Below, one piece after another: positions 16,101-29,222 of a DNA stretch of 47,090 nt (positions are counted from its first letter, which is position 1; each line of letters opens with the position of its first letter). The DNA comes from a virus. The DNA is taken from positions 1-47,090 of the IMG/VR virus record IMGVR_UViG_3300043015_001450. One strand, 5' to 3'. The position numbers and the translations under genes were made by a program. The notes below the pieces were generated by a model. The model was not told the origin of the DNA and did no database searches. It saw nothing but the letters and a program-made list of their open reading frames with translations.

Positions 16101-16185
16101 TTTTCTTATTTTTTTTTACATCAAAATAACAAACTAATATTGTTAATATGGTAACTGCTGCTAGCACAAAAAAATCTAATATCAT
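16093..16185 (-). CDS. Tiny membrane protein (30 aa)
   Basis: MILDFFVLAAVTILTILVCYFDVKKNKKNG: one transmembrane helix followed by a basic tail, so N-out/C-in by charge. It starts three bases after the stop of the 63-aa membrane protein. Similar small peptides inhibit or tune host membrane enzymes in other phages, but nothing specific can be said here. Confidence 0.5.
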   Translation of the reverse strand: MILDFFVLAAVTILTILVCYFDVKKNKKNG

Positions 16186-16188
16186 GTT

Positions 16189-16380: not shown

Positions 16381-16394
16381 ATTTATCTCCTACA

Positions 16395-16799: not shown

Positions 16800-17089
16800 G
16801 CATTTACTCCTTCTTGTTTTAACAAAATTTTTCTCATCCTTTTAATGGTTAGACGTGAGGGCTGATAATCATATAACCTCCATAATTTGCCGAATGAAAA
16901 AGGATAACCACTAATCCAAATGTATTTTAAATCCCCTAAATCTGCTGTATACCAACCAATATTTGTAAATTTAACGCCTTCATTTAAAAGATTGTTAATT
17001 TTTTTATCTAATCTGCAGCAATATGGATGCTGTTTGAACCAAAAACTAGGCTTGCAAATAAACTGCAAACTCTTGATAAATTTAATCAT
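16796..17089 (-). CDS. Unknown basic protein (97 aa)
   Basis: A basic, aromatic-rich protein ([54 protein letters not shown]) ending with a basic helix ([16 protein letters not shown]). The strand-turn pattern with [10 protein letters not shown] resembles small phage proteins of unknown role. Starts inside the stop of the 46-aa membrane protein and overlaps SSB. Confidence 0.6.
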
Positions 17090-17222
17090 TATTTACCTTC
17101 CTCTTTAATTTGTAATGCTCGTATATGTTTGCGGCAACATAGCAAATCAATGCAAATAAACATATACCAGCGGCAAACGCTAACATGCCAAACAATAACA
17201 ATTCAGTAAGCTCATTAGTCAT
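17082..17222 (-). CDS. Small membrane protein (46 aa)
   Basis: MTNELTELLLFGMLAFAAGICLFALICYVAAN...: one long transmembrane helix followed by a basic tail ([13 protein letters not shown]). The ATG overlaps the stop of the annealing-protein gene and its stop overlaps the start of the 97-aa gene. GGAGG sits upstream. Tight overlap on both sides supports a real gene. Confidence 0.6.
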   Translation of the reverse strand: MTNELTELLLFGMLAFAAGICLFALICYVAANIYEHYKLKRKVNND

Positions 17223-17814
17223 TATTTGCCTCCTCTTTTTTTAACTCCTCACTACGAGCCGTGCAAATATCTATAATTTCTTGGTTATGCTCTGGGTATT
17301 TTGTTTTAGTTTCTTGCAAATAAATTTTTAATGCTTCAACTGTATTAATATACTTAACTGTGTTTGCTATACCTTGTGCATTATATGCTTCTTGCGGTAT
17401 ATCGTTTACAGCATCTAGTCGTGCATCATCGCTTATATCTTCACCTGCATATAAACATAAACCTATCCCATGCCGTGCAATAGCTTTAGTAATTGCTCTT
17501 TGTATAGCTTTATTAGCATCCATGCTAGTAATTTTGTCTAGTGATATAGATTGATTGCGATTATTCATTACAGGCAAATACTCAGTATGTGTAATTTCAT
17601 CAACAGTTACAGATACCTCTACCCATGCAGTGCGTTCATCTGTATGATATAGCCAGCCTTTGTTATTTTTTATAATTGCATAGTTGGCGTTGGGATGTAT
17701 ACGCTTTAACTGCTCCCATGCATACGTCCATGATAAATATTTTAAACGCCCTTTTGTTTCTGTTTTATCTGCAATGTTTACCTTGTTTAGGTTTATAAAA
17801 TAATTATTCTCCAT
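17215..17814 (-). CDS. ssDNA-annealing protein, DUF1071/Sak-like
   Basis: A 199-residue protein with the DUF1071 hallmarks in order: INLNKVNIADKTETKGRLKYLSW, then AWEQLKRIHPNANY, VEVSVTVDEITHTEYLPVM, and AIQRAITKAIARHGIGLCLYAGED. This family belongs to the Rad52-like phage annealing proteins. It pairs single strands during phage recombination. The frame can be opened nine residues earlier, but ATG 17814 with GAGG six bases before it is the natural start. It lies with SSB and Gp157 as a recombination set. Confidence 0.88.
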   Translation of the reverse strand: MENNYFINLNKVNIADKTETKGRLKYLSWTYAWEQLKRIHPNANYAIIKNNKGWLYHTDERTAWVEVSVTVDEITHTEYLPVMNNRNQSISLDKITSMDANKAIQRAITKAIARHGIGLCLYAGEDISDDARLDAVNDIPQEAYNAQGIANTVKYINTVEALKIYLQETKTKYPEHNQEIIDICTARSEELKKEEANND

Positions 17815-17974
17815 GGCACACCTCGCAATAAGCAAAGCCACCGCCGTTGCACTGGCAATCTTCTTGTGCTTCTAGTTCTTGCTTTTTTCTTGCTTGCTCT
17901 GCTTTAATTTGCTCAATAAAAGCTCTGTTGTCTGCAAACATTAGCTCTTTAAAAAGTCCTGCATAGTCTCTCAT
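17804..17974 (-). CDS. Small protein with a C-terminal CxC...CxxC metal site (56 aa)
   Basis: MRDYAGLFKELMFADNRAF..., a charged helix, then DCQCNGGGFAYCEVCHGE, a DnaJ-like CxC-Gly-rich-CxxCxG zinc motif. The upstream ATG at 17986 belongs to the shared leader; ATG 17974 is used here. The end overlaps the annealing-protein start by 11 bases. Probably a small zinc protein bound to the recombination set. Confidence 0.65.
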   Translation of the reverse strand: MRDYAGLFKELMFADNRAFIEQIKAEQARKKQELEAQEDCQCNGGGFAYCEVCHGE

Positions 17975-18005
17975 GTTTATCTCCATTGTTGTTGATTAAA
18001 GCATT

Positions 18006-18034
18006 AATATACTGTAATTATTTTTAATTGTCAA
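18006..18034 (-). promoter_or_regulatory. Early promoter, TTGACA-N17-TATATT
   Basis: -35 at 18029-18034, -10 at 18006-18011. Drives the zinc protein, annealing protein, membrane protein, SSB operon. Leader AATGGAGATAAA. Confidence 0.82.
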
Positions 18035-18043
18035 TGATTTATA

Positions 18044-19003
18044 TCAATCTTCCCAACATCTACCATCTGGCATGATTGTATCGCTATTATCAAAATCCAC
18101 ACCATCCAAATCAACTATCGCATTTTTAAATGTTGTCTCTTCACAGTATGTGCCACTGCCATAATCGTTTGGGTCGTAGTCTCGAGAATCTATAAAAGTT
18201 GAATCTGTTAAATCGGCATATTCAAAAGACACACATTCAATATATGTTTCGTTAAAAGTGCAATTAATTAGCTTTGATTGTGCAAATTTTGAATTAAATA
18301 AATCAGCACCTGTAAAATTTGTATAAGAGCCTTTTGCGTTTGTAAAATCGCAGTATTTAGCATCACAATTTATAAATGTAGCATTGTCTAACAATGTATT
18401 TATAAAATTACCAATAATGCTTGCGTTTGTAAAATCGCAACCTGTAAAATTACAACCTGTAAAATTCCCTGTAATGCTTGCGTTTGTAAAATCGCAACCT
18501 GCAAAATTGCAGCCTGTAAAATCGCAGGTGTTACTGCTTAACTTCATATTTCTAAAATCTAAATTAGAAAAATTTTGATTAGATAAATTAATAGGCGTGA
18601 AATTATAATTTATGATTAAAGGTGAGGCTTTGTAGCGATGAAACACTTCTGTAAAAGAGATGGGGTTTTTAGCAATAAAATCTGTGAAATTTGACATCTG
18701 CCCTGTATCGTCTGTTTTTAGTACATTTACAATGCTTTTACAATCTTCTAAATAAGCATTGCTTTCTGATATGTTGCTACCATTTGTATAATTTAAGCAT
18801 TTGTATAAATTAGTGCAACTATCGCAATCAATGCAATATTTGCAATTCATACAATTCCAACATCCTAAATTATACAGGTTATCCTCTTGGTAATTTGGAT
18901 ACTTCTTGGCAAATTCTGGCGATACGCCGTTTATTCTTTTGTTGGCTCTATTTTTAAATTCGCCAAAATTCTTGAAAATTTTTACATGCCCATTTTTATA
19001 CAT
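18044..19003 (-). CDS. Pentapeptide-repeat protein with a CxxC ladder (319 aa)
   Basis: Residues about 48-69 carry seven cysteines in a CxxC ladder (CWNCMNCKYCIDCDSC) that continues with the same spacing of a beta-helix turn. Residues about 150-300 are pentapeptide repeats (NFTGCNFTGCDFTNASI...). A 19-residue unit (GCNF-GCDFTNASI-GNF) is duplicated, visible in the DNA at 18416-18530. The N-terminus (residues 1-45) is basic and differs from both. The C-terminus is acidic and ends CWED. The leader ATGGAGATAATAG precedes the ATG by 16 bases. No known function. Confidence 0.8.
   Translation of the reverse strand: MYKNGHVKIFKNFGEFKNRANKRINGVSPEFAKKYPNYQEDNLYNLGCWNCMNCKYCIDCDSCTNLYKCLNYTNGSNISESNAYLEDCKSIVNVLKTDDTGQMSNFTDFIAKNPISFTEVFHRYKASPLIINYNFTPINLSNQNFSNLDFRNMKLSSNTCDFTGCNFAGCDFTNASITGNFTGCNFTGCDFTNASIIGNFINTLLDNATFINCDAKYCDFTNAKGSYTNFTGADLFNSKFAQSKLINCTFNETYIECVSFEYADLTDSTFIDSRDYDPNDYGSGTYCEETTFKNAIVDLDGVDFDNSDTIMPDGRCWED
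18416..18530. repeat. 57-bp internal tandem duplication in the pentapeptide gene
   Basis: Two adjacent units starting aatgcttgcgtttgtaaaa read as two copies of the same 19-residue block. The copies differ at a few bases. Recent duplication is the usual way such beta-helices lengthen. Confidence 0.75.
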
Positions 19004-19042
19004 AATTATCTATTATCTCCATTTGTTGTTAATTAAAGCAAT

Positions 19043-19071
19043 AATATACTGTAATTATTTTTAATTGCCAA
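19043..19071 (-). promoter_or_regulatory. Early promoter, TTGGCA-N17-TATATT
   Basis: -35 at 19066-19071, -10 at 19043-19048, with the same spacer (ATTAAAAATAATTACAG) as the copy at 18006. Drives the 319-aa pentapeptide gene; leader AAATGGAGATAAT. Confidence 0.8.
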
Positions 19072-19113
19072 TACTTTATAAATTATCTCCTTGTAAAATT
19101 GCTGCTTTGCGTT

Positions 19114-19371
19114 CTAAATAATATTTAGAAAAAAATTAACCAAAGCTCTTTCTCTCTTCCAAAAAAATTCACGCTCAATGATTACATTGTCGTAATCTTC
19201 ATCTCTGTCGCTTGCTTTAACGTAATCAAAATATTTTTTGCTAGTGCTGTTTCTCCACTCACAACTAAATCTATATTTGCCATTTCTACGGCTTTTATAG
19301 AGTTTTATTAAGTTAATTTCTCCAACTTTACTGATAGTGGATTTTTTATCATCATTTAATGTAATACTCAT
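19114..19371 (-). CDS. Unknown small protein (85 aa), possibly extended by a -1 shift
   Basis: A basic protein (INLIKLYKSRRNGKYRFSCEWRNSTSKKYFDYV) ending FFLNII. At the 3' end a T7 run (AATTTTTTTCTAAA) lies in the frame. A -1 shift there opens SKYYLERKAAILQGDNL to a stop at 19076. The same ending (KLAILQGHNL) closes the 32-aa gene just upstream, so the longer form is probably the ancestral protein. Either a real programmed slip or a homopolymer change. Confidence 0.6.
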   Translation of the reverse strand: MSITLNDDKKSTISKVGEINLIKLYKSRRNGKYRFSCEWRNSTSKKYFDYVKASDRDEDYDNVIIEREFFWKRERALVNFFLNII

Positions 19372-19374
19372 AAT

Positions 19375-19473
19375 TTATAGATTATGTCCTTGTAGAATTG
19401 CTAGCTTACTTTTAACCCAATTTTCTTTACTTTTTGCACACAAATAATTTTTATTTTTTTGATACCATTTCAT
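19375..19473 (-). CDS. Small basic protein (32 aa)
   Basis: MKWYQKNKNYLCAKSKENWVKSKLAILQGHNL starts inside the end of the 119-aa gene and stops 3 bases before the next ATG. Its C-terminus is nearly the same as the out-of-frame end of the 85-aa gene, which argues that both are genuinely coding. No function recognised. Confidence 0.5.
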   Translation of the reverse strand: MKWYQKNKNYLCAKSKENWVKSKLAILQGHNL

Positions 19474-19810
19474 AATTAGATTTATTTATATAATTAGTAA
19501 GTGCGTATGCACTCATATTGCACAATAATACTTTGTTACCATCACACATAAAACTAGCTTGCATATCGTGCGTGATTGCCACAGAATGTGGCACTGTAAT
19601 GCTTAACTCATCCCACTTTGTTTTTAACTTTGCAGGTGTACGCAAGTAATCTAATACTTGAGCTTGAAAATCTTGCACGTTGTTTTTTCTAAACTGTTTA
19701 TCTGCACATTTAATCATAAATTTGTCGTCTATTACTCTATAGAATGCATAGTTTACAATCTGCCTTGATAGAGTGTTTAACAGCTCTTGTTTTGTTAGTT
19801 CTACAGCCAT
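19451..19810 (-). CDS. Unknown protein (119 aa)
   Basis: MAVELTKQELLNTLSRQIVNYAFYRVIDDK...: a helical start, then a strand-rich middle (KWDELSITVPHSVAITHDMQASFMCDGNKVLLCNMSAYALTNYINK). No family recognised. Ten bases separate it from the stop of the 102-aa gene upstream, in the replication operon that begins near 22.95 kb. Confidence 0.6.
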   Translation of the reverse strand: MAVELTKQELLNTLSRQIVNYAFYRVIDDKFMIKCADKQFRKNNVQDFQAQVLDYLRTPAKLKTKWDELSITVPHSVAITHDMQASFMCDGNKVLLCNMSAYALTNYINKSNYEMVSKK

Positions 19811-19820
19811 ATCACACTTA

Positions 19821-20129
19821 TTAAAAATCGCCCAACATAAAGCCTAGCAGCGTTTCTCCGAGAGCTTCTTCACTATAATCACCGTACGAAGACAGCCAAC
19901 ATCTGGTGTATTCATGCATTGTAAATTCGCCACCTTTATAGCCAGTATATGTATTGCCCAGTGCCTTTTTTGCACAATCTAACATCGCTCCAACAGTTGT
20001 GTTATCGCACGGCTCAAACGCCAAATCCTCATAATACCCACGATAACTGTGGGGTGAGTTAAAACCTCTTGCTACTTTTTGATTGCGTGGGTATTGCTCT
20101 AATTTTTCAATTAATTCTTTTAAATTCAT
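19821..20129 (-). CDS. Conserved phage hypothetical protein (102 aa)
   Basis: MNLKELIEKLEQYPRNQKVARGFNSPHSYRGYYEDLAFEP...GNTYTGYKGGEFTMHEYTRCWLSSYGD. The segments PHSYRGYYEDLAFEP and TYTGYKGGEFTM are a recurrent signature in many phages of unrelated hosts, without known function. The frame also opens at 20144, but ATG 20129 behind GGAGG is preferred. Confidence 0.75.
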   Translation of the reverse strand: MNLKELIEKLEQYPRNQKVARGFNSPHSYRGYYEDLAFEPCDNTTVGAMLDCAKKALGNTYTGYKGGEFTMHEYTRCWLSSYGDYSEEALGETLLGFMLGDF

Positions 20130-20155
20130 AATATTTGCCTCCATTTATTTTAAAA

Positions 20156-20722
20156 TTACACTACTTTTAAGCTGCCTACATTTACAGCTCCACGGCTAAT
20201 TCTTTTGCTGTTCTGCTGTTCTGCATAACCTATAGCCTTATCTGGTAAACTAGCACTATCTGCTTGTGCGTTCTGCTTGTATCTAGCTATAAAATCGTTT
20301 TTCATAAAATCTAATTCTGACCTAGTTTTATTAGTTATTGCATACCAGCCTCCAAGCTCCTCTACACATGCCACCAGTGCTTTGTCTTCATGTATAAAAT
20401 TAGAGTAAGGACTAATTGAACGTATACAACGCCTAAGCTCAATGTATGCATCCTCTGCTTGCTTCTCCAGCTTTTCCTTTTGAAGTTGTGCATCTTGTTC
20501 GGTGTTGCCTCTTATCTGCTCTGTGATGCTTTTAAGCGTTACCTTGCCGTATACCTTGTGCTTACCTGTCATAATATTAATACAAGCCCTTTTAACAGCT
20601 TCTAAGTCTTCTTGCATTAACTCACCAAGCCATAATAACTTTAATTCTTTGCTTAGAGTGATATTCTCGCTTTCACAGAAAGTAGTTAAAAAACTCTTTA
20701 GATTATCTGCTTTTTTATCCAT
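20156..20722 (-). CDS. Replication accessory protein (188 aa), duplicated N-terminal domain
   Basis: Residues 1-85 (MDKKADNLKSFLTTFCESENI...GKVTLKSITEQIRGN) are a helical domain repeated in the upstream 83-aa gene. Residues 95-150 (YIELRRCIRSISPYSNF, VACVEELGGWYAITNKTRSELDFMKNDFIARYK) match the C-terminal region of many phage replication/helicase-loader-type proteins (DUF6475-like). It follows the DUF6291-like replication gene. A role in DNA replication is likely. Confidence 0.65.
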   Translation of the reverse strand: MDKKADNLKSFLTTFCESENITLSKELKLLWLGELMQEDLEAVKRACINIMTGKHKVYGKVTLKSITEQIRGNTEQDAQLQKEKLEKQAEDAYIELRRCIRSISPYSNFIHEDKALVACVEELGGWYAITNKTRSELDFMKNDFIARYKQNAQADSASLPDKAIGYAEQQNSKRISRGAVNVGSLKVV

Positions 20723-20724
20723 GC

Positions 20725-20781
20725 TTAATTACCTCCTTTGTTTGTTTCATTCATCCTACCTTTATAGCTAATTTCAAGCAT
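20725..20781 (-). pseudogene. Remnant of the replication-gene C-terminus left by tandem duplication
   Basis: An 18-codon frame reads MLEISYKGRMNETNKGGN, closely matching the true C-terminus of the 303-aa gene (SYKSRMNEANKGGN) that precedes the other copy. It shows that the duplicated unit spans the end of that gene plus the start of the next. Confidence 0.65.
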
Positions 20782-21025
20782 TTGCAGTTTGTGCCTCTTG
20801 TTCGGTATTGCCTCTTATTTGTTCCAAAATATTTTTTAGCGTGATTTTGCCGTAAACTTTGTGCTTACCTGTCATAATATTAACGCAAGCCCAGTTAACA
20901 GCATTGTAGTCTTCTACCATTAGCTGACCAAGCCAGAAAACCTTTAGCTCTGCACTTAACTTGATACTTTCGCTTTCACAAAATATCTTTAGCAATGCTT
21001 TTAAATCGTTTACTTTTTTATCCAT
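20774..21025 (-). CDS. Duplicate of the replication-protein N-terminal domain (83 aa)
   Basis: MDKKVNDLKALLKIFCESESI...MTGKHKVYGKITLKNILEQIRGNTEQEAQTANA. It matches residues 1-85 of the 188-aa protein 303 bases downstream at well over half of positions, including FCESE, WLGQLM, NIMTGKHKVYGK and EQIRGNTEQ. It lacks the C-terminal domain. Start ATG 21025 follows GGAGG; the earlier ATG at 21052 is not needed. It may have its own role or act as a competitor of the full-length form. Confidence 0.7.
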   Translation of the reverse strand: MDKKVNDLKALLKIFCESESIKLSAELKVFWLGQLMVEDYNAVNWACVNIMTGKHKVYGKITLKNILEQIRGNTEQEAQTANA

Positions 21026-21929
21026 GATTATTGCCTCCTTTGTTTGCTTCATTCATCCTGCTTTTATAGCTCATCGTAAGAATTTCACGTACATTATCGG
21101 TCATCTCCCCTAAATCATTCCAATCATTATCTTTTACAGATTCCTGAGATGCTTGCACACTCCTTAAAGTCTTAGCAGTTTGGCTTTGTGCTTTAATATT
21201 CCTTGCTATCTGTTCTGCATGATAAGCGTGAGTCCATGTTACCCATTGCTTGGCTTCCCAGACCTCCAGCACTTCATCTATGCTTATGCCTGCATCTACA
21301 GAATACTTAACTTGTGTCAAAAATTGCTTGAGGCTTGCTTGCGTAAACGTCCTAGTTTTTTTAGTCGTATTATTTGCTGTACGTATCCTGATTGCTTCTT
21401 GTTGCTGTTGTTCTGTCAACTCTAAACCTGCAACGCATTGCCAGTCTAACTGTTGCTCTTTTGGCAACTGTAAAGGTTTATTTGACAGTTGCTCTTTTTG
21501 CAACTGGTGACTACCTGACACCGTTTGCTCTTTTGACTTATCACTATTTGTAAGAGGTTGATTGTCTTCTACCTCTGTAGCCTCTGGTTGTACAGTGTTT
21601 AGCTGTTCTACTTGCTTTGCCTCTTTTTTAGCTCTCCTCGCTTTGCCACTTGCTATACCTTTTTTCCTGTTCTCTTTAAATTTTTTACTACAAGATATAA
21701 TAGTATATTCAGCCATCAGGTAAGCCATTTTACTATAATCTGATGTAAATTCTGGCATTTTTTGATTGTTGATTTTTGCGTAAATTGCTAGACAGAATTG
21801 CCCAATTATACGCTCTTGTTCTGCTTGTGGCTTATTTGCAATCATTGTTTGCAAAGGCTCTATGAATGAAGGTTGCAGTATTACACCTTCACTTTCTTCT
21901 ATTTCTTGACTTTCTGTAATATCTGTCAT
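21018..21929 (-). CDS. Putative replication initiator/organiser (303 aa), DUF6291-like
   Basis: N-terminal residues 20-110 (LQTMIANKPQAEQERIIGQFCLAIYAKI...SCSKKFKENRKKGIASGKARRAKKEA) resemble the DUF6291 type found at the start of phage replication proteins. A low-complexity Gln/Glu linker follows (110-190), then a C-terminal helical domain (FLTQVKYSVDAGISIDEVLEVWEAKQWVTWTHAYH) like those of phage replication-organiser proteins. It lies downstream of the iteron-like region and ahead of the two accessory copies. Function inferred from layout. Confidence 0.6.
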   Translation of the reverse strand: MTDITESQEIEESEGVILQPSFIEPLQTMIANKPQAEQERIIGQFCLAIYAKINNQKMPEFTSDYSKMAYLMAEYTIISCSKKFKENRKKGIASGKARRAKKEAKQVEQLNTVQPEATEVEDNQPLTNSDKSKEQTVSGSHQLQKEQLSNKPLQLPKEQQLDWQCVAGLELTEQQQQEAIRIRTANNTTKKTRTFTQASLKQFLTQVKYSVDAGISIDEVLEVWEAKQWVTWTHAYHAEQIARNIKAQSQTAKTLRSVQASQESVKDNDWNDLGEMTDNVREILTMSYKSRMNEANKGGNNHG

Positions 21930-21937
21930 ATACTTTC

Positions 21938-22003
21938 CTATATTGAAGTTGATTTATGTTGAAGTGATTTAATTATAATTTTCTTCATTAAAATGTTATT
22001 CAT
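21938..22003 (-). CDS. Possible 21-aa basic peptide
   Basis: MNNILMKKIIIKSLQHKSTSI with AGGAG eight bases before the ATG, ending 9 bases before the replication gene start. It could be a leader peptide that couples translation. The good ribosome site is the only evidence. Confidence 0.35.
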   Translation of the reverse strand: MNNILMKKIIIKSLQHKSTSI

Positions 22004-22037
22004 GATTGTACTCCTGTTTAATATTTTCATCTATCCA

Positions 22038-22068
22038 AGCTAGTATCTCACAAATACTAGCTTTTTTT
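22038..22068 (+). terminator. Plus-strand intrinsic terminator
   Basis: AGCTAGTAT and ATACTAGCT form a perfect 9-bp stem with a 7-base loop, followed by T7 on the plus strand. No gene on the plus strand ends here, so it may end a small plus-strand RNA. Confidence 0.7.
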
Positions 22069-22081
22069 ATATCTTGCAATC

Positions 22082-22285
22082 TCACTCCCACAAATCCGCT
22101 TCTTTCAATGCCTCTTTTGTGAGAGAGCTTACTGTATGTGAAAATAAGTTTGACGTTTTTGCTATTCTAAATTTAGTTTTTTTAGTCAAACGATGTTTAG
22201 CACCCTGCAATAAATGTGTTTCACTAGAAAAATTAAATACCAAAATGTCTTTCCAAGATTTATAGCCTAAAATAAAATTAATCAT
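22082..22285 (-). CDS. Small basic unknown protein (67 aa)
   Basis: MINFILGYKSWKDILVFNFSSETHLLQGAKHRLTKKTKFRIAK...: a strand-rich N-terminus and a basic middle. Overlaps the upstream gene by four bases. Part of the replication operon. No family recognised. Confidence 0.55.
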   Translation of the reverse strand: MINFILGYKSWKDILVFNFSSETHLLQGAKHRLTKKTKFRIAKTSNLFSHTVSSLTKEALKEADLWE

Positions 22286-22509
22286 ACTCTCCCTATTTTA
22301 TCAAATATCATTGAAAATAAACTCTCTACTAAAATTTTAGAGCCGTTAGCTTGATTAATATAAAAATCTAATGCTTTGCGTTGCTCTCTCAAATTATACG
22401 CATCAAGTATATTTTGAAATAAGGTAACACCACATTGCATAAGTTTCTCCATGCCTAACTTGGCTTGTTGCTCAGTAATACCAAGATTAAAGAATTGTGA
22501 TAATTTCAT
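22282..22509 (-). CDS. Small helical unknown protein (75 aa)
   Basis: MKLSQFFNLGITEQQAKLGMEKLMQCGVTLFQNILDAYNLREQRKALDFYIN...: helical throughout, with one cysteine. Sits between two other small proteins in the operon leading to the replication gene. No family recognised. Confidence 0.55.
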   Translation of the reverse strand: MKLSQFFNLGITEQQAKLGMEKLMQCGVTLFQNILDAYNLREQRKALDFYINQANGSKILVESLFSMIFDKIGRV

Positions 22510-22534
22510 ATTAATTGCTCTTAATTTTTACAAC

Positions 22535-22762
22535 TTAATTTGCCAATCCAAGTTTTGTCTCCACTTCTTGTTGTGAGTATCTTTTATTGGATTTTCCTAA
22601 AATAAATAGTGATGATTGTATATCTTCTAAATCCTCATCACACAAAAGCTCCTTGCTATTTTTAGCATTTTTTATATTTTTTGCTTTTATTTTTTTTAAC
22701 CATTTTTTTGCTCTTAATCTGCCCTTGTCAATTATTGCTACTTTTTCTTGTTCACTCATCAT
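22535..22762 (-). CDS. Small lysine-rich protein (75 aa)
   Basis: A highly basic helix (DKGRLRAKKWLKKIKAKNIKNAKNSK) followed by an acidic segment (DEDLEDIQSS) and a short helix. It could bind DNA or RNA. Second gene behind the promoters at 22988-23045. Confidence 0.55.
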   Translation of the reverse strand: MMSEQEKVAIIDKGRLRAKKWLKKIKAKNIKNAKNSKELLCDEDLEDIQSSLFILGKSNKRYSQQEVETKLGLAN

Positions 22763-22775
22763 TCATCCACTTTAA

Positions 22776-22952
22776 TTATACTACTTTGTAATTTCTTCTA
22801 GGTTTGCGTTTTCTAATCTCTACACCAGATTCACGCAAAATTTTATACAACAATGCAGGTGAACGAATACCAAACTTTTCAAGTGTAACGGTCATACCAA
22901 ATTCTTTATAACTTTTGATAAGTTCTGATTTAATAATAGTAATAGTTTCCAT
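22776..22952 (-). CDS. Small helix-turn-helix protein (58 aa)
   Basis: METITIIKSELIKSYKEFGMTVTLEKFGIRSPALLYKILRESGVEIRKRKPRR... The core, TVTLEKFGIRSPALLYKILRESGV, is a resolvase-type helix-turn-helix ending in a basic tail. It is the first gene next to the repeat region, behind two promoters, so it is a good candidate for a regulator or for a protein binding the repeats. Missed by length cut-offs. Confidence 0.65.
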   Translation of the reverse strand: METITIIKSELIKSYKEFGMTVTLEKFGIRSPALLYKILRESGVEIRKRKPRRNYKVV

Positions 22953-22987
22953 CGTTAAGTTAAGTTAATTTATTCAAGTGCAACCAG

Positions 22988-23016
22988 ATTATAAAATAAA
23001 ATTAATATACTAACAA
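22988..23016 (-). promoter_or_regulatory. Promoter TTGTTA-N17-TATAAT
   Basis: -35 at 23011-23016, -10 at 22988-22993. Second of two overlapping promoters before the helix-turn-helix gene. Confidence 0.6.
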
Positions 23017-23017
23017 G

Positions 23018-23045
23018 ATAATAATAAAAATATTTTACCTGTCAA
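23018..23045 (-). promoter_or_regulatory. Promoter TTGACA-N16-TATTAT
   Basis: -35 at 23040-23045, -10 at 23018-23023. Upstream of the helix-turn-helix gene and the replication operon. Its 16-base spacer resembles the small-RNA promoters rather than the 17-base early family. Confidence 0.65.
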
Positions 23046-23090
23046 AAAAAAGGAAAGAGAGCAAATTTATTTTGCGTATCTATGTATATT

Positions 23091-23135
23091 TGATGTATAT
23101 GTGATGTATATGTATATGTGATGTATATGTATATG
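23091..23135. repeat. TGATGTATATG direct repeats
   Basis: One 11-base copy (23091-23101) is followed by two 17-base copies TGATGTATATGTATATG (23102-23118 and 23119-23135). AT-rich, directly beside the other two repeat sets. Confidence 0.85.
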
Positions 23136-23136
23136 A

Positions 23137-23194
23137 GTTCGGAACAGAAAATAATTCGGTTCGGAACAGAAAATAATTCGGTTCGGAACAAGAA
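23137..23194. repeat. 22-bp iteron-like repeats GTTCGGAACAGAAAATAATT
   Basis: Two perfect 22-base units (23137-23158, 23159-23180) plus a 14-base partial third (23181-23194). The core GTTCGGAAC is itself partly palindromic. Spacing of two DNA turns fits cooperative protein binding on one face, as in plasmid/phage origins. Confidence 0.88.
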
Positions 23195-23225
23195 TTTATT
23201 TATTTATTTTTTTACTTTATCTTTA

Positions 23226-23267
23226 GGTTCAACGACCGTTCAACATGGTTCAACGACCGCTCAACGA
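23226..23267. repeat. 21-bp repeats GGTTCAACGACCG
   Basis: Two 21-base units (23226-23246 and 23247-23267) each containing two TTCAAC/CTCAAC half-sites 11 bases apart. Separated from the 22-bp repeats by an AT-rich T-tract stretch (23195-23222). Together these form a candidate origin or operator array. Confidence 0.85.
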
Positions 23268-23283
23268 AATTATTTATCGGCGT

Positions 23284-23308
23284 AAAAAAACCAGCACTAT
23301 GGCTGGTT
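23284..23308 (-). terminator. Intrinsic terminator after the 63-aa gene
   Basis: On the minus strand AACCAGC-CATAGT-GCTGGTT (7 bp) followed by T runs. Same CCAGC...GCTGG arms as the two small-RNA terminators at 23617 and 23727. Confidence 0.85.
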
Positions 23309-23330
23309 GTGAATACTAAATTTTAATTAG

Positions 23331-23522
23331 TTAATCGTTATCATAACTATTTTCTGCTACTTCCTTGCACAACTCTATAAATCTTACAGCAGCATTATAT
23401 TCCTGTTCGCTACAATTTTGCTTAATAGAATCTAGACAGTAGTCATGCTCCTTTAACTTCTCTACGCATTGATTCATATCATCTACGGTATTTTCAAAAG
23501 CACAATAACTCATATTTGTCAT
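23331..23522 (-). CDS. Small acidic unknown protein (63 aa)
   Basis: MTNMSYCAFENTVDDMNQCVEKLKEHDYCLDSIKQNCSEQEYN...: acidic and helical with four cysteines. It has its own promoter, the leader AATGGAGATAAA, and its own terminator, so it is a monocistronic early gene set right beside the origin-like region. No family recognised. Confidence 0.65.
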   Translation of the reverse strand: MTNMSYCAFENTVDDMNQCVEKLKEHDYCLDSIKQNCSEQEYNAAVRFIELCKEVAENSYDND

Positions 23523-23551
23523 TTTATCTCCATTATATTAATTAAAGTAGT

Positions 23552-23580
23552 AATATAATATAATTAGTAGAGATTGTCAG
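23552..23580 (-). promoter_or_regulatory. Early promoter, CTGACA-N17-TATATT
   Basis: -35 at 23575-23580, -10 at 23552-23557. Drives the 63-aa gene; leader AATGGAGATAA. Confidence 0.78.
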
Positions 23581-23616
23581 TATTTATACAACAAACACTC
23601 CATTTTTTTCAGGCAT

Positions 23617-23680
23617 AAAAAAACCAGCACCCCTACTAGAGATGCTGGCACACTATATATAGCAGCTTAGCTAACTGCTA
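23617..23680 (-). ncRNA. Small RNA unit A (about 64 nt)
   Basis: Begins about 7 bases after the promoter at 23687-23714. It contains a 6-bp hairpin (TAGCAG...CTGCTA) and ends in a terminator with CCAGCATC/GGTGCTGG arms and T7 (23617-23648). The arms need a U-G pair that exists only on the minus strand, which fixes the direction. No start codon with a ribosome site. Confidence 0.6.
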
Positions 23681-23686
23681 GTTGAT

Positions 23687-23714
23687 ATTATATTGTATTA
23701 AGTTTGAAAGACAA
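23687..23714 (-). promoter_or_regulatory. Promoter of RNA unit A, TTGTCT-N16-TATAAT
   Basis: -35 at 23709-23714, -10 at 23687-23692. Four of the five gene-free units use a 16-base spacer, unlike the early family (17). Confidence 0.65.
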
Positions 23715-23726
23715 TATTTCAGGCAC

Positions 23727-23874
23727 AAAAAAACCAGCACCCTCGACAAAGTAAAGATGCTGGTAATCTGTGATGATTAGAAACTTAACTTATATGGATG
23801 TCCCTCACCATCGTGCCTAATAAAAGACAAGCTAATCCACCGCCCTGTAAGGACTAAGCTAATATTAAAATCTT
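23727..23874 (-). ncRNA. Small RNA unit B (about 148 nt)
   Basis: Starts after the promoter at 23881-23908 and ends at a terminator (23727-23763) with the same CCAGCATC/GGTGCTGG arms and T7. It contains the GGTGGAT motif shared with units C and D. The only ATG inside gives a 7-residue peptide without a ribosome site. Confidence 0.6.
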
Positions 23875-23880
23875 GTAAAT

Positions 23881-23908
23881 ATTATAATTAAATAAAGTGT
23901 AATGTAAA
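23881..23908 (-). promoter_or_regulatory. Promoter of RNA unit B, TTTACA-N16-TATAAT
   Basis: -35 at 23903-23908, -10 at 23881-23886. Nearly identical to the promoter of unit C, including the spacer start TTACACTTTATTT. Confidence 0.68.
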
Positions 23909-23918
23909 AAGGATTTAC

Positions 23919-24077
23919 AAAAAAAAAGTGGATTACGTAGCTAGAATCTCCCTTACAGTAGAGTTCCAGCCACGCCGTGATTACACAAGCAGACAAGCAG
24001 ACAGCTTAATCTTTTTTATACTTTTATAGATATCCACCACGTGCATCCGACACCCAAGTACAAAACTTATAATCTTT
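23919..24077 (-). ncRNA. Small RNA unit C (about 159 nt), paralogue of D
   Basis: Follows the promoter at 24084-24111 and ends in T9 (23919-23927). GTGGAT (24032-24037) can pair with ATCCAC (23928-23933) directly before the T run, closing a large structure. Inside is the hairpin GCTGGAACTC/GAGATTCTAGC. The same hairpin, with G-U changed to G-C, occurs in unit D. Segments AAGATTAAGC and CTGCTTGTG are shared in the same order. No coding frame. Confidence 0.6.
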
Positions 24078-24083
24078 TAAATT

Positions 24084-24111
24084 ATTATAACAAAATAAAG
24101 TGGAATGTAAA
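24084..24111 (-). promoter_or_regulatory. Promoter of RNA unit C, TTTACA-N16-TATAAT
   Basis: -35 at 24106-24111, -10 at 24084-24089. Spacer starts TTCCACTTTATTT, nearly the same as unit B. Confidence 0.68.
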
Positions 24112-24319
24112 ATAAATTAACGAAGCTGGAAGCTCCGAACTAGTAGAGTTCCAGCTACGCACGGCTAACCAGATAAGCACAAGCAGACGGCAGGCTTAAT
24201 CTTTTTCATGCTTTACGAATAACCCACCGCACGAGGCTACCCAGCACAAAACTAAAAAGCATGTACCGATAGGGTTCTCCCAATCCAAAAATACATGCCG
24301 ATGGGGTTCTCCCAATCCA
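24112..24319 (-). ncRNA. Small RNA unit D (up to about 208 nt), paralogue of C
   Basis: Begins after the promoter at 24326-24353. It opens with two tandem hairpins GATTGGG-AGAA-CCC (24300-24317 and 24268-24285), continues with the GGTGGGT, AAGATTAAGC and CTGCTTGTG segments shared with C, and ends in the hairpin GCTGGAACTC/GAGCTTCCAGC (24121-24159). The 3' end is only U-rich, so the exact end is uncertain and it might read through into C. Confidence 0.55.
24268..24317. repeat. Two tandem hairpin repeats GGGAGAACCC
   Basis: 18-base units at 24268-24285 and 24300-24317, 32 bases apart, each GAT-T-GGG-AGAA-CCC-Y-ATC on the minus strand with a single internal mismatch and an AGAA tetraloop. Not a CRISPR: only two copies, and the unit folds on itself. 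Confidence 0.75.
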
Positions 24320-24325
24320 CGGTTA

Positions 24326-24353
24326 ATTATATTAAATTATTGCAGTTAATCAA
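24326..24353 (-). promoter_or_regulatory. Promoter of RNA unit D, TTGATT-N16-TATAAT
   Basis: -35 at 24348-24353, -10 at 24326-24331. Perfect -10, 16-base spacer. Confidence 0.62.
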
Positions 24354-24453
24354 TAATTAAAATGTAGTTAATGCTTATTTTAGATTAAGTGCAAATGCCT
24401 ATAAATAAAAAGGTTTTAGGGTTTACTTGTAGTTATTAATTTATTTTAAGCAT

Positions 24454-24606
24454 AAAAAAGCAAGTAACACTGCCCTTGTCTGGAAATAAAAATCAAGAAA
24501 ACCAGATTGGCAATGCTACTTGCTTAGTTCGTTCAAAATGGAGATAATGAATCGAAAACCAATACCTACAAACAATCTTTAATTAAAGACTATTCTCCTT
24601 ATTGTA
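24454..24606 (-). ncRNA. Small RNA unit E (about 153 nt), antisense to the shared early leader
   Basis: Starts after the promoter at 24613-24641. It ends in a terminator with 16-bp arms (24459-24474 with 24509-24524) and TTTTTT. Two of the pairs are G-U only when read on the minus strand, so the RNA is minus-strand. Between them, at 24535-24549, it carries CAUUAUCUCCAUUUU, the exact complement of the AAAATGGAGATAATG leader that precedes about ten early genes. No start codon follows its own AGGAG. Likely a trans-acting antisense RNA on the phage's own transcripts. Confidence 0.6.
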
Positions 24607-24612
24607 AGAGTA

Positions 24613-24641
24613 ATTATAAGCAAGATTTAACAGATTAGCAA
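24613..24641 (-). promoter_or_regulatory. Promoter of RNA unit E, TTGCTA-N17-TATAAT
   Basis: -35 at 24636-24641 (inside the end of the DUF1064-like gene), -10 at 24613-24618. Confidence 0.6.
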
Positions 24642-24988
24642 TAGTAACTTTTAACTATTTTAATGTGCTTTTGTGTAGGGTTACCAGTTACCAGCACTAA
24701 CTTAGCATTCTTGCTTTTATCAATATAATCGTAAAAAAGATGTTGTGCTAATTGCCACTTGTTAAGCCAGTCGTTCGTTTCAAGTCCTCGCTTAACCTCT
24801 ACCCACTCTATACAGTCGCCAGTATCAACTACAAAATCTATCTTGTAGCTTTTGTAGTGTAGAGGTTGCTGCGAGCCGTTGTAGACTACTAAATGTATTG
24901 CTTTTTGCTCGGTGTAGCTAATGATATTGCCTTTGTCTATTTCCTTGTCTAAATCGTCTTTGTAGGACTGCTCAATTTTAGAACGCAT
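24635..24988 (-). CDS. DUF1064-like PD-(D/E)xK nuclease (117 aa)
   Basis: MRSKIEQSYKDDLDKEIDKGNI... with YKIDFVVDTGDCIEWVEVKRG (about 46-66), the D...ExK metal site of restriction-fold enzymes. Family members are small phage endonucleases near recombination genes. It overlaps the RusA stop by 11 bases and closes the recombination operon; the RNA-E promoter sits on its last codons. Confidence 0.7.
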   Translation of the reverse strand: MRSKIEQSYKDDLDKEIDKGNIISYTEQKAIHLVVYNGSQQPLHYKSYKIDFVVDTGDCIEWVEVKRGLETNDWLNKWQLAQHLFYDYIDKSKNAKLVLVTGNPTQKHIKIVKSYYC

Positions 24989-25481
24989 TTAATTCTTTTA
25001 TTTGTTTTTCACACTTAGCAATAAATTGTTCTGCTAATTTTAGCCGTCTGTCATCATTAGATGTTGTTGTCTCTTTGCTCTCTATCTCATCTATAGCTTC
25101 TTCTGCATAACTTATGCCCTCATTAAGCAATACAGCTATTTGTTGATTCTCATCTGGCACAAAAGGCTTAATACTGAATTGTATTTTCTCAGAGCCTTTG
25201 CTGACAATATGTTTAGTTTGTCTGCTGTGGTAAATTAAATTATCATTAAAGTTGTATTTCTTTTGCAAGCAGTCATTAAACGCTTTTAAAAAGTTATCTA
25301 TATCACTAGCCTTGCTAGAGTAAAAAACATGGTATATAACAGTGAATGGAGGCTCTGGGAGCTTTATTTTTGGCAATAGTATATTAAGCTCTTGTGCATA
25401 TCGTTTATACGCTGGAGTTTTATATCTGCGACCCTGCCAAGCTTCATTTACAGATAAGGGTTTTATATTAACTGTATACAT
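24978..25481 (-). CDS. rusA: RusA-family Holliday junction resolvase (167 aa)
   Basis: VNEAWQGRRYKTPAYKRYAQEL at the start and KASDIDNFLKAFNDCLQKK with D60, D62, K66 and D70, then NFNDNLI with D80, the acidic cluster that binds Mg in RusA. Length exceeds E. coli RusA (120) because of a C-terminal charged tail of about 45 residues. It resolves branched DNA before packaging. Its ATG overlaps the SNase stop by one base. Confidence 0.85.
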   Translation of the reverse strand: MYTVNIKPLSVNEAWQGRRYKTPAYKRYAQELNILLPKIKLPEPPFTVIYHVFYSSKASDIDNFLKAFNDCLQKKYNFNDNLIYHSRQTKHIVSKGSEKIQFSIKPFVPDENQQIAVLLNEGISYAEEAIDEIESKETTTSNDDRRLKLAEQFIAKCEKQIKELNAF

Positions 25482-25921
25482 TACTTACACCAATTATGAT
25501 ACCCTTTTTTCTCTACACGTGCATAACCACGTGCAAGCATAAAGTTATTAATGTTTATATCATCTGCATATAGAACGGCTAAATAACGCCCTAAACTGTC
25601 TAGCTTGTTGTTGTTGTCAATATCTATAATAATACTATTAGATTTTTTTAGCGTGTAATTTAGATAATCTCTAGCCTTTTTTGCTAGCCTTTTTTCTTTA
25701 GCACATTTACCTCTAATCTCTGGTGTATCTATACCAGCTAACCTGATTTTTACACTATCGCCAAAAAACGGCAACACTCTAACACCTGTAACAGCATTGT
25801 TAAGCAAGTGTACAGTGCATGTATCACCATCGTAACAGCTAACATATTTAACAGTGAATTTATCAGCGTGTGTTAGTGTGCTAAACGCAATCGCACACAG
25901 TGTAAGTATTAGCTTATGCAT
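25481..25921 (-). CDS. Exported thermonuclease-like SNase protein (146 aa)
   Basis: ATG 25921 opens a signal peptide (MHKLILTLCAIAFSTLTHA), then the SNase fold: VSCYDGDTCTV, KIRLAGIDTPEIRGKC (Arg/Glu active site), LGRYLAVLYADDININNFMLARGYARV. Cysteines (CAKEK, HNWCK) suggest an oxidising compartment. A phage-encoded secreted nuclease could degrade DNA in the periplasm, for example incoming competitor DNA (inference). An upstream in-frame start at 25960 would spoil the signal peptide. Confidence 0.82.
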   Translation of the reverse strand: MHKLILTLCAIAFSTLTHADKFTVKYVSCYDGDTCTVHLLNNAVTGVRVLPFFGDSVKIRLAGIDTPEIRGKCAKEKRLAKKARDYLNYTLKKSNSIIIDIDNNNKLDSLGRYLAVLYADDININNFMLARGYARVEKKGYHNWCK

Positions 25922-26378
25922 ATTTATCGTAATATTCTTTGAATGCTTCTTGTTCTGCATTTGTAAGTTGTACAGTTTCTTCTTCCATGTTTAGCTCATC
26001 TATAGCAAATTCTTGCGTCTTATTAATTATATCTATTGCTTCTTGCTTTGTCGCATCAGCAAAGCTCTTAGGTATAAATGTATCTAGTCGCAATTCTCCG
26101 AACTGAATAGCATGTTTAACAATAAATTTAACATGCTCAACAGACCACATTTTGTTTTGAAAATTATGCTCATTTAGATATGTTGCAATAACGCCTAGTA
26201 TTCTATGCCAGCCCCTGCACTGGCTATAAGTCTTGGGAGGCTTTTTTTGTGTAAATTTAACCTCCCAAGTTGTATTGAATTCTTGCATTGTCACTAACAC
26301 GCCACGTTTGTAATAAATGCCGATATTTTTTATCTCTTGCGGATTATCTGCCGATAAATAAAAAGTTCTATTATCCAT
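25914..26378 (-). CDS. Conserved unknown in the recombination operon (154 aa)
   Basis: RTFYLSADNPQEIKNIGIYYKRG, VKFTQKKPPKTYSQCRGWHRILGVIATYLNEHNFQ, HVKFIVKHAIQFGELR, KSFADATKQEAIDIINKTQEFAIDEL. It recalls the NinB-type/small phage recombination proteins by size and place, but I cannot confirm it. It overlaps neighbours on both sides, so it is co-translated with the metallophosphoesterase and SNase. Confidence 0.65.
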   Translation of the reverse strand: MDNRTFYLSADNPQEIKNIGIYYKRGVLVTMQEFNTTWEVKFTQKKPPKTYSQCRGWHRILGVIATYLNEHNFQNKMWSVEHVKFIVKHAIQFGELRLDTFIPKSFADATKQEAIDIINKTQEFAIDELNMEEETVQLTNAEQEAFKEYYDKYA

Positions 26379-27177
26379 AGCTTTTTTCTACTTTTAAATC
26401 TTTAGACACTTTTATTAATGCAGGTATATTATTTTTAACATCTAGCTCTATAAAACTAATAGAGCCGTCTAAAAAGCTACAGCAACCTGTATTTGCATAA
26501 TAATTAGATGTAATAGTATGCTTGTCATACAGATTGTTAATTGTACGCTCAATCCTCGGATTGTGAGTGTGTCCACAAATTAAATTAATACCTAACTCTG
26601 CCTGTGCTTCATATAAATTATTGCAGTGTTTACGGCTAATATCGTTTGCAGTTCTTGGTAAATCTCTTACGCCTAAATAATTTTTATTCTGAAGCCATCC
26701 AAGCAATTTAATAAATTGACGAGCAAAGGGTATCTCTACCTCTCCTTTGTGTCCGTGAGTTATTAAAATATTATTGCATTTTATAGATTGATAGATATTT
26801 TTAGTTAAAATAGTCTTAGCAATATCACACTTTAATATCTTTTTGTCGTGGTTTCCTGCTATAATATAATATTTTAAGTAATTATTTTTGATAAAGTTGA
26901 AAAGATGATTATATCGTTTGATTATATCGTATATGCTATTCTGCTCCCAAAGCTCGAAACAATCGCCCAAAATTATAAGCTCATAGGATTTTTTAGCATA
27001 TATTTTGAGAGCATGAAGCAAACTTTCTTCACACTGTCTGAATTGGTCTGCTCCATCTTTTAAGCCTAAGTGTAAATCAGATATAATAATAACTTTATCT
27101 GCTAGCTTGACCTCTGGAGCTGTCCTAAGCTCCTTTTTTAATGCTCTTTTTATAAGTGGGTAGAAAGATATAGCCAT
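26371..27177 (-). CDS. Calcineurin-like metallophosphoesterase (268 aa)
   Basis: Complete metal-site set: DLHLG near 35-39 (ISDLHLGL), GDCFELWE (about 71-78), GNHD (about 108-111), THGHKG (about 140) and GHTHNPR (about 208). The order matches LpxH/YfcE-like enzymes. In phages, such proteins may act on nucleotides, phosphoproteins or lipid precursors; no substrate can be read here. The ATG at 27177 overlaps the ThyX stop; an upstream TTG is an alternative. Confidence 0.85.
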   Translation of the reverse strand: MAISFYPLIKRALKKELRTAPEVKLADKVIIISDLHLGLKDGADQFRQCEESLLHALKIYAKKSYELIILGDCFELWEQNSIYDIIKRYNHLFNFIKNNYLKYYIIAGNHDKKILKCDIAKTILTKNIYQSIKCNNILITHGHKGEVEIPFARQFIKLLGWLQNKNYLGVRDLPRTANDISRKHCNNLYEAQAELGINLICGHTHNPRIERTINNLYDKHTITSNYYANTGCCSFLDGSISFIELDVKNNIPALIKVSKDLKVEKSYG

Positions 27178-27779
27178 CAAAAATCAATATAGTTAAAATG
27201 AGTTTGCAGGTCTTGCTTAATCGCTTGTGCTATTAGTCGGCACTCTTTTTGTGCATGTTCATCGTCTCTTACATGAAAGAAATGCATCCACGAGCGGATA
27301 TTGCCTGTCATTATCAATGTTGTTTGCGTTGCCATTGGTAATACCATTCTTGCAACCTCTCTTGCTACACCTTTGCCAATTAATTCTTCATACAATTTCA
27401 TGCTGTCCGATAAATGCTTATCTACTTTATTTTCTAATTCTTTATTATCTATTAATTCAGCACTAGACTGCCTGTTATTCTTGCATTGCTTTCTAAGCTC
27501 TACTGTCTCGCAATCTGTAGCTATTGCGTATCTCTGGCTAAATTCTTGAAACACAAAGCTTCTGTGTCGCAATAATTGTATAGCTATTGCTTTGCTCGTT
27601 GTAATTTCATAACTTGCATTTGCATGTTCAAAAGGAGACCAATGCTTATTCTGAATTAAATACTTAATTAACTTGCCAACATCTTCTTTTTTATTTTTTC
27701 TTGAACTAGAAATTCTAGCAACATCAGCGACAATAAACTGCTCCGCATTATGCGTAATCTGTTTTAATTTAATTTTCAT
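27177..27779 (-). CDS. thyX: Flavin-dependent thymidylate synthase
   Basis: A 200-residue ThyX. The signature RHRSFVFQEFS (residues 71-81, RHR-x7-S) binds FAD and dUMP. Other conserved parts: WSPFEHANASYEI, IATDCETVELR, VLPMATQTTLIMTGN, RSWMHFFHVR. It makes dTMP from dUMP with folate and FAD, feeding AT-rich phage DNA. The frame opens earlier at 27815, but ATG 27779 overlaps the endolysin stop. Confidence 0.93.
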   Translation of the reverse strand: MKIKLKQITHNAEQFIVADVARISSSRKNKKEDVGKLIKYLIQNKHWSPFEHANASYEITTSKAIAIQLLRHRSFVFQEFSQRYAIATDCETVELRKQCKNNRQSSAELIDNKELENKVDKHLSDSMKLYEELIGKGVAREVARMVLPMATQTTLIMTGNIRSWMHFFHVRDDEHAQKECRLIAQAIKQDLQTHFNYIDF

Positions 27780-28440
27780 TGCACAGCTCTTTATATTTAC
27801 CCAATTGCTTATCAAACTGCAGACTTAGAGCATTTGACATACTGCGTAATTGTTTATAATCCTGCTCTAAATTGTTATACCAGCCAAAAACTTCAGACTT
27901 AGCTACGATTAATCCTACGTTTGCAATCAATGTAGACACTCCTGCATCTTCTAACTCATCTTTGTAGCCAAAGCGTATCATCTGATAGTGATATTTACTG
28001 TCTAACATCTCTTCACTTGCAATGCCGTAATTGCGTTGCTTAATAGCTGCAATCATTCTTTTAAATTTCAGCACACCAGTAACGCCTATGTTGTACGCTA
28101 AATCAATAATGATTGCTTGTTGAAAGTCGCTCAAATCCTCAGCAAACCATAAATGTTTGCTTAAAGCTCTTTTACAATTAATAATTTCACTCTGTAAGAA
28201 TGCAACTGCTAATGCTTCTTTGTCTGTAGTATTATTAATTTGCTCTATTGCTTTATCTACTCCATTGCTAAAATCTATATCTAAATCTGGTCTGCCAGCA
28301 CATTTATATAAACCATCCAGCACTTCTAAATTTGTGCCAAATCCAAAGGTTTTATAACCGGCAGGGCAAGTGTACACTTCTAGCTTGCAACCCTCGTTCA
28401 ATTTGATTAGCTTAGTTGCTATATCTATTGCTTTACTCAT
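27769..28440 (-). CDS. Endolysin, GH24 lysozyme of the P1 E-C-T type (223 aa)
   Basis: Catalytic set E16-(8)-C25-(5)-T31 in NEGCKLEVYTCPAGYKTFGFG, the Glu-Cys-Thr triad of P1 Lyz rather than the Glu-Asp-Thr of T4. The first 15 residues are not a clear SAR/signal-anchor, so export probably needs a holin. Residues 95-160 complete the fold (FLQSEIINCKRAL, FQQAIIIDLAYNIG). It cleaves the peptidoglycan sugar backbone. It lies after the pentapeptide gene and before ThyX. Confidence 0.88.
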   Translation of the reverse strand: MSKAIDIATKLIKLNEGCKLEVYTCPAGYKTFGFGTNLEVLDGLYKCAGRPDLDIDFSNGVDKAIEQINNTTDKEALAVAFLQSEIINCKRALSKHLWFAEDLSDFQQAIIIDLAYNIGVTGVLKFKRMIAAIKQRNYGIASEEMLDSKYHYQMIRFGYKDELEDAGVSTLIANVGLIVAKSEVFGWYNNLEQDYKQLRSMSNALSLQFDKQLGKYKELCNEN

Positions 28441-28442
28441 TG

Positions 28443-28958
28443 TTAATCATTTGTAATTTCAATACCTAATAATGCTGGTAGTTGTGTTATTTGTTGCTTA
28501 GACATTTTTGCTGTAAAAAGATTCGCTCTAGATAAATGTGCACCACACAACTCTATTGTACGTAAATCAGTTTCACAAAACATAGCCTCAGGGCAGTAAG
28601 CACCTCTAAACACTGCTTCATGGCAATGTGCATGGCGAAAATCTACATCATTTACCCATGCACCTGAAAAATTTGTATAGCTTAAATTTGCTTTAAAAAA
28701 AAATGAATGTGGTAATTTTGCACCCCGAAAGCTTGCATACTGCAAGTTGCAATTAGAAAAATTTGCACTGTGTGCATAAATACCTCGAAACCTTGCACTT
28801 TCTAAATTAACACCGCCAAAATTAACTTTAGATAAATCAAAACCGCTAAAATCAACACCGCTAAAATCTATTTCAGCATTAGGATTATCTCTCCTAAACT
28901 GATTAAATTCATCTATTTTGCCAGATTTTAACAACTCTATTAATGCGTCTTTGGTCAT
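28443..28958 (-). CDS. Pentapeptide-repeat protein (171 aa)
   Basis: A short leading helix (ALIELLKSGKIDEFNQFRRDNP), then an A(D/N)(L/F)xx beta-helix (FSGVDFSGFDLSKVNFGGVNLESARF, NLQYASFRGAKL). The N-terminal motif followed by pentapeptides is common in phage and cyanobacterial proteins. Third such protein in this genome. Encoded between the 66-aa gene and the endolysin, 2-4 bases from each. Confidence 0.85.
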   Translation of the reverse strand: MTKDALIELLKSGKIDEFNQFRRDNPNAEIDFSGVDFSGFDLSKVNFGGVNLESARFRGIYAHSANFSNCNLQYASFRGAKLPHSFFFKANLSYTNFSGAWVNDVDFRHAHCHEAVFRGAYCPEAMFCETDLRTIELCGAHLSRANLFTAKMSKQQITQLPALLGIEITND

Positions 28959-28959
28959 T

Positions 28960-29160
28960 TTATAAGCCCATTAATTTGCTTTCTAATTTTCTTGCAAAGT
29001 ATGACAAGACTAACGAGTATTTAGCGTTTAAATATTCATTGCTGTAAATTGCACACATATAATATTCTACAGCTTTAAATGCTCTCTCTAAAGCGTAAAT
29101 ATTATTAGAATTGATAGCAGATTTTGCTATGTGTATAGACTGAGTTAGACTTATATTCAT
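28960..29160 (-). CDS. Small helical unknown protein (66 aa)
   Basis: MNISLTQSIHIAKSAINSNNIYALERAFKAVEYYMCAIYS...: entirely helical. ATG 29160 follows the shared leader AAAATGGAGATAAAT; the frame could open at 29172 in the leader ATG. It heads the operon that carries the pentapeptide gene, endolysin, ThyX and the recombination genes. Confidence 0.6.
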   Translation of the reverse strand: MNISLTQSIHIAKSAINSNNIYALERAFKAVEYYMCAIYSNEYLNAKYSLVLSYFARKLESKLMGL

Positions 29161-29193
29161 ATTTATCTCCATTTTATGTTGTTGTTGGAGATT

Positions 29194-29222
29194 ATTATAC
29201 AGTAAATATTTTTAGTTTACAA
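29194..29222 (-). promoter_or_regulatory. Promoter TTGTAA-N17-TATAAT before the lysis/recombination operon
   Basis: -35 at 29217-29222, -10 at 29194-29199. Same variant as the Gp157 promoter, with the shared leader. It is the only copy of this family in the late half, so the endolysin-ThyX-recombination operon may be expressed with early genes. Confidence 0.78.

Follow-up and report, generated by a model that had tools for sequence, protein, structure and literature searches.

Several small RNAs are known that act at ribosome-binding sites (RBS). The c4 RNA of phages P1 and P7 and the sar RNA of P22 repress a phage gene by RBS pairing, for which loops are believed to hold the complementary sequence (PMC12197685), and further small regulatory RNAs encoded by phages include PreS, OOP and 24B_1 of lambdoid phages and VpdS of phage VP882 (PMC12197685). 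AbcR1/2 of Sinorhizobium and NmsRA/B of Neisseria are tandem homologous sRNAs of ~110-120 nt that carry an anti-Shine-Dalgarno motif in or beside a hairpin loop and repress many mRNAs (PMC8844928; PMC5362039). By analogy, one unit (U1) of the array described here looks as if it resembles c4, AbcR1/2 and NmsRA/B in working, while being by sequence a member of no described family. Covariance models of 4,227 Rfam families, c4 RNA included, gave no match at gathering score in the window (the whole linear virus record of 47,090 bases), and a permissive Rfam search of 22900-24700 returned only mir-1303 and a yeast snoRNA, both chance matches. The window contains no tRNA or tmRNA genes by ARAGORN, and no sequence relation of the array to AbcR1/2 or NmsRA/B was found.

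Promoters, terminators and frames in the largest gap

The gene content is that of a phage with a GpA-type terminase, a contractile-tail sheath and a tape-measure protein, as well as a Sak recombinase, SSB, Thy1 and a RusA-like protein. Identity of its portal, tail sheath and tape measure to the proteins of Vibrio, Shewanella, Aeromonas and other phages is no more than ~26-36%, and two scans of genome contigs found no prophage relatives pointing to the host. The product of 10132-10881 is similar to the phage beta-glucosyl-HMC-alpha-glucosyltransferase family (PHROG 842, E 4.5e-21) and is possibly involved in DNA or surface glucosylation. Nearly all long gene-like frames of the window are borne by the minus strand, and the array sits in the largest break in their cover (23523-24634, 1,112 nt), flanked by a 117-aa gene (24635-24988), which is weakly Cas4/AHJR-nuclease-like with a match below cut-off, and a 63-aa gene (23331-23522) for a phage protein without known function. 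Adjoining the array is a second gene-poor gap (22953-23330) with iteron-like short tandem repeats, namely GTTCGGAACAGAAAATAATTCG (2-3 copies), GGTTCAACGACCG[TC]TCAAC (2 copies) and TGTATATGTGATGTATA (3 copies), which is possibly an origin or protein-binding region.

The original prediction placed five promoter-like elements on the minus strand here, four with a 16-nt spacer and one with 17 nt, all with TATAAT, and these were borne out with 10-11 of 12 matching positions each. The region examined (23560-24660) was compared with 500 dinucleotide shuffles of itself as the null model. Five promoters of at least 10/12 were observed on the minus strand of this 1.1-kb region against 0.40 expected, with none of the 500 shuffles reaching five, and requiring an exact TATAAT with at least 4/6 of the -35 box at 16-17 nt again gave five observed against 0.11 expected (0/500). 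No site of at least 10/12 is present on the plus strand of the array region, and other 1.1-kb stretches hold at most two such minus-strand promoters each. The 16-nt spacer, which had been called unusual, is indeed so within this phage, as the spacer is exactly 17 nt in the promoters of all ten leader genes described below (10-12/12 matches). The five units are as follows.

24454-24606, minus strand: U1, ~154 nt; promoter 24641-24613 (17-nt spacer); terminator stem 24525-24458 followed by T6
24110-24319, minus strand: U2, up to 210 nt; promoter 24353-24326 (16-nt spacer); 3' hairpin with a weak T-tract
23912-24077, minus strand: U3, ~160-170 nt; promoter 24111-24084 (16-nt spacer); 3' hairpin with a late T9
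23726-23874, minus strand: U4, ~150 nt; promoter 23908-23881 (16-nt spacer); terminator 23764-23733
23616-23680, minus strand: U5, ~64-69 nt with two hairpins; promoter 23714-23687 (16-nt spacer); terminator 23649-23623

The predicted sizes of about 64, 148, 159, up to 208 and 153 nt (U5 to U1) agree with these values, and no unit holds a frame of at least 50 codons or one with an RBS, in line with the earlier statement that none codes convincingly. Four T-rich terminators had been anticipated, of which those of U1 (17-bp stem, fold z -6.4), U4 and U5 (12-bp stems plus T7; U4 fold z -3.9) are strong. U2 and U3 have hairpins with weaker or late T-tracts: that of U2 is followed only by TTAATTTATTTT, a broken T-tract, and that of U3 by the T9 tract ~8 nt past the stem. 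Since U2 and U3 lack clean terminators, read-through into the next unit is possible. This lack would also suit units that are transcribed without being trans regulators, as leader or spacer transcripts or promoters of downstream genes with the hairpins serving as attenuators or processing sites, and all units read in the direction of the 63-aa gene and of those past it. However, transcription of U1, U4 and U5 would run into a strong terminator at the end of each unit, and the 63-aa gene is equipped with a promoter and a terminator of its own; we regard such leader or spacer transcripts as quite improbable. The contrast with a phage that otherwise packs its genes head to tail is weaker than stated: ten genes possess individual promoters and leaders, and the phage therefore does have other promoter-bearing gaps.

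Relations between the units and the search for relatives

U2 and U3 are paralogues with ~65% identity over ~220 bases (self-match E 2e-16), spanning promoter-proximal as well as body sequence. Their alignment contains 4- and 5-nt indels, which rule out a shared reading frame; hidden small frames in the two units were rejected on these indels and on a 21-codon frame of U3 that is broken in U2. The 3' hairpin (GCTGGAACTCTACT...) keeps 15/15 pairs in both, with two pairs altered on one side (A-U to G-U and G-C to G-U), although two sequences cannot show covariation. A segment of 45 nt (80%) around the promoter is common to U3 and U4, and the terminators of U4 and U5 are paralogous. From these shared segments, the locus probably grew by local duplication. 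Two further assignments were tried and rejected, U4 as a third member of the U2/U3 family, where the promoter is shared and the body similarity is not significant, and a Type III toxin-antitoxin RNA (ToxI-like), for which there are just two 32-nt repeats, in tandem within U2 (24255-24318), and no toxin family among the neighbours.

The region is best read as a dense small-RNA locus, and the predicted transcripts are partly supported by the sequence. This part of the original prediction is upheld by promoters beyond chance, at least three terminators, the absence of frames and the structured paralogues U2 and U3, and it is weakened by the want of clean terminators in the latter two. The same DNA might instead be an untranscribed element, such as an origin or partition region or a set of protein-binding sites, whose AT-rich sequence mimics promoters; promoter-like words are frequent in AT-rich DNA, and the iteron-like repeats lie in the adjacent gap. 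However, five promoters are seen where the shuffles yield 0.1-0.4, with none on the opposite (plus) strand, the terminators face one way with promoter and terminator alternating in order, and all hairpin pairs are kept by U2 and U3 despite differences elsewhere. We give very little credence to a mere DNA element and retain the small-RNA locus.

No array homologues were found in INPHARED by blastn, near and distant, or by way of three neighbouring proteins, and a covariance model of U2 and U3 (R1) found nothing more, either elsewhere in the window or in 25 other loci. In IMG/VR, the 17-mer of the U2/U3 hairpin gave only six chance matches, the 21-mer of the U2 repeat none, and the 16-mer of the U1 seed 55 matches without the flanking stem of U1, none in a close relative of the phage. 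The collections searched contained no relative with the array part sequenced; the contig of the nearest relative (L008) stops just before the array, ~30 nt into the gene after RusA. Relatives with contigs that stop shortly ahead of the array are represented by IMGVR_UViG_3300040815_001335. A more distant relative, G005 (locus L074), has other genes at the array position. There, downstream of the nuclease gene, a block of minus-strand frames of 147, 596, 279, 164 and 260 aa (L074:1607-5941) replaces the small-RNA units.

A repeated leader and its complement in U1

The commonest coding-strand 10-mer is AATGGAGATA, together with ATGGAGATAA, and each of its ten copies is the RBS of a separately promoted gene. 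All nine minus-strand copies of ATGGAGATAA lie at an RBS, and the one plus-strand copy, at 24538, falls within U1. The leader forms part of a gene-start cassette found at ten minus-strand places (11453-29173), composed of a sigma-70-like promoter (mostly TTGACA...TATATT), AATGGAGATA and the start codon.

29164-29173, minus strand: leader AATGGAGATA of gene 28960-29172; kept in relative L004
23525-23534, minus strand: leader of the 63-aa gene 23331-23522
19014-19023, minus strand: leader of pentapeptide-repeat gene 18044-19003
17978-17987, minus strand: leader of gene 17804-17986
15927-15936, minus strand: leader of Gp157/Gam-like gene 15395-15922
14822-14831, minus strand: leader of pentapeptide-repeat gene 14087-14830
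13979-13988, minus strand: leader of gene 13752-13976
12396-12405, minus strand: leader of gene 12234-12404
12013-12022, minus strand: leader of gene 11758-12021
11453-11462, minus strand: leader (AATGGAGATA, with one mismatch farther along) of gene 11247-11450

The genes so marked are mostly small and of unknown function, plus two pentapeptide-repeat proteins and one Gp157/Gam-like protein. The phage has three pentapeptide-repeat proteins in all (14087-14830, 18044-19003 and 28443-28958), two of which carry the leader. In relative L004, the leader and start codon of the gene matching 28960-29172 are kept while the bases between -35 and -10 drift. In the leader of this gene (29164-29200), ATCTCC is found ~20 nt upstream of its own GGAGAT, an arrangement kept in L004, and this leader could thus hide its own RBS.

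The sole antisense copy of AATGGAGATA in the 47 kb lies inside U1, where it is presented by a predicted hairpin.

24528-24556, minus strand: U1 seed hairpin, with the 12-nt loop UUAUCUCCAUUU at 24536-24547 and arms UUCG(A)UUCA and UGAACGAA

By chance, the plus strand as a whole should hold 0.0014-0.0034 copies of the 12-mer AAATGGAGATAA. The seed match was noticed post hoc, with an expectation of roughly one per several hundred genomes of this size. At 1.7-2.9% of positions, a 12-nt loop is enclosed by an equally good stem. With about -4.5 kcal/mol and a fold z of -0.9 the seed hairpin is weak, and its loop is mostly unpaired in the predicted fold of the whole U1 RNA. By mean duplex energy, U1 pairs with gene start regions better than its shuffles do (z -4.2; U2-U5 z -0.1 to -1.9), and the start regions contain 18 antisense matches of 10 nt or more to U1 as opposed to 1-6 to each of the other units; on both measures, no phage target of U2-U5 is clearly above background. 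U1 combines several features of a trans-acting anti-Shine-Dalgarno sRNA, namely its own promoter and intrinsic terminator, a length within ~50-250 nt, no frame, and a stretch, predicted to be accessible, that can pair with the RBS of several mRNAs from distant genes, the last of which U2-U5 do not have.

The motif in U1 could also be a leader cassette copied in inverted orientation, with a relic leader on the plus strand and another role or none for the U1 RNA. The plus-strand motif is followed by ATG and an 11-codon frame (MNRKPIPTNNL), as such a relic would be. However, the region has no plus-strand promoter of at least 10/12, the plus-strand gap from GGAG to ATG is 3 nt against the usual 5-7 nt, and the likeness to the leaders is limited to the motif. 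Moreover, the inverted arms that enclose the motif in U1 flank none of the seven leader copies bearing the full 12-mer. An inverted copy seems unlikely in view of these data, and we favour an antisense function of U1. A general anti-RBS rule among the relatives was also considered and rejected, since no RBS word dominates in five isolate genomes; the repeated RBS word of G005, AAGGAATTAA, is a different one, with 4-5 coding-strand copies and no antisense copy in the part read.

Proposed action of U1 and comparison with described systems

Taken together, we consider it rather likely that the locus comprises five small-RNA genes, with U1 a trans-acting antisense off-switch of the leader regulon and U2-U5 further structured RNAs. 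What the sequence itself displays are the promoters and terminators, the paralogy of U2 and U3, the predicted loop, and the motif with its single antisense copy, in U1. From these we infer that the units are transcribed, that U1 pairs with the leaders in the cell and represses the genes, and when it would do so. U1 would be transcribed by the host polymerase from its host-type (sigma-70) promoter and terminated after ~150 nt. The loop UUAUCUCCAUUU, held out by the short hairpin, would pair over 11-13 nt with the leader AAATGGAGATAA, and this pairing would cover GGAG and block ribosome entry at ~10 separately promoted genes located at 11-29 kb. Genes without the leader, those for head, tail and packaging among them, would be spared, giving a post-transcriptional off-switch for one regulon, and the predicted target set fits a switch ending an early phase. 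The 17-nt spacers of the leader promoters and of U1, as opposed to 16 nt in U2-U5, suggest that U1 may be co-expressed with its targets. Our guess is that U1 acts as a delayed brake, expressed along with the genes it represses, and U2-U5 are under a slightly different regime; by default, we would guess that U2-U5 act on host RNAs or proteins. More tentatively, we propose as a possible, if bolder, picture a genome-wide translational regulon in which one RNA silences the whole set and the other four RNAs are host-directed.

Early-to-late switches of phages are usually explained by transcription, through new sigma factors, antiterminators or repressors. If the mechanism proposed for U1 is true, a gene set would be shut down in a purely post-transcriptional manner by a shared leader and one complementary small RNA. 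Such an arrangement is searchable in sequence, by taking the RBS word that a phage uses most and looking for a single antisense copy of it between genes, in a unit closed by a terminator. The open-licence literature searched contained no precedent for a phage RNA directed against one standardised leader of many of the phage's own genes. PreS, OOP, 24B_1 and VpdS are, like the units of the array, small regulatory RNAs from phages; the review presents them as separate RNAs rather than a row of five units, and assigns to none of them a leader used genome-wide as its target (PMC12197685).

AbcR1/2 and NmsRA/B differ from the array in being chromosomal and aimed at metabolic genes, and the paralogous pair here (U2 and U3) is not the unit with the anti-Shine-Dalgarno loop (U1). 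They also have a generic UC-rich word, whereas the loop of U1 fits 12 nt of one specific leader. Like U1 as proposed, the c4 and sar RNAs are small phage RNAs whose RBS complement is believed to sit in a loop (PMC12197685). Unlike these RNAs, which are described for one gene, ant, U1 belongs to an array of five independent units, and its complement fits the leader of ~10 separately promoted genes.
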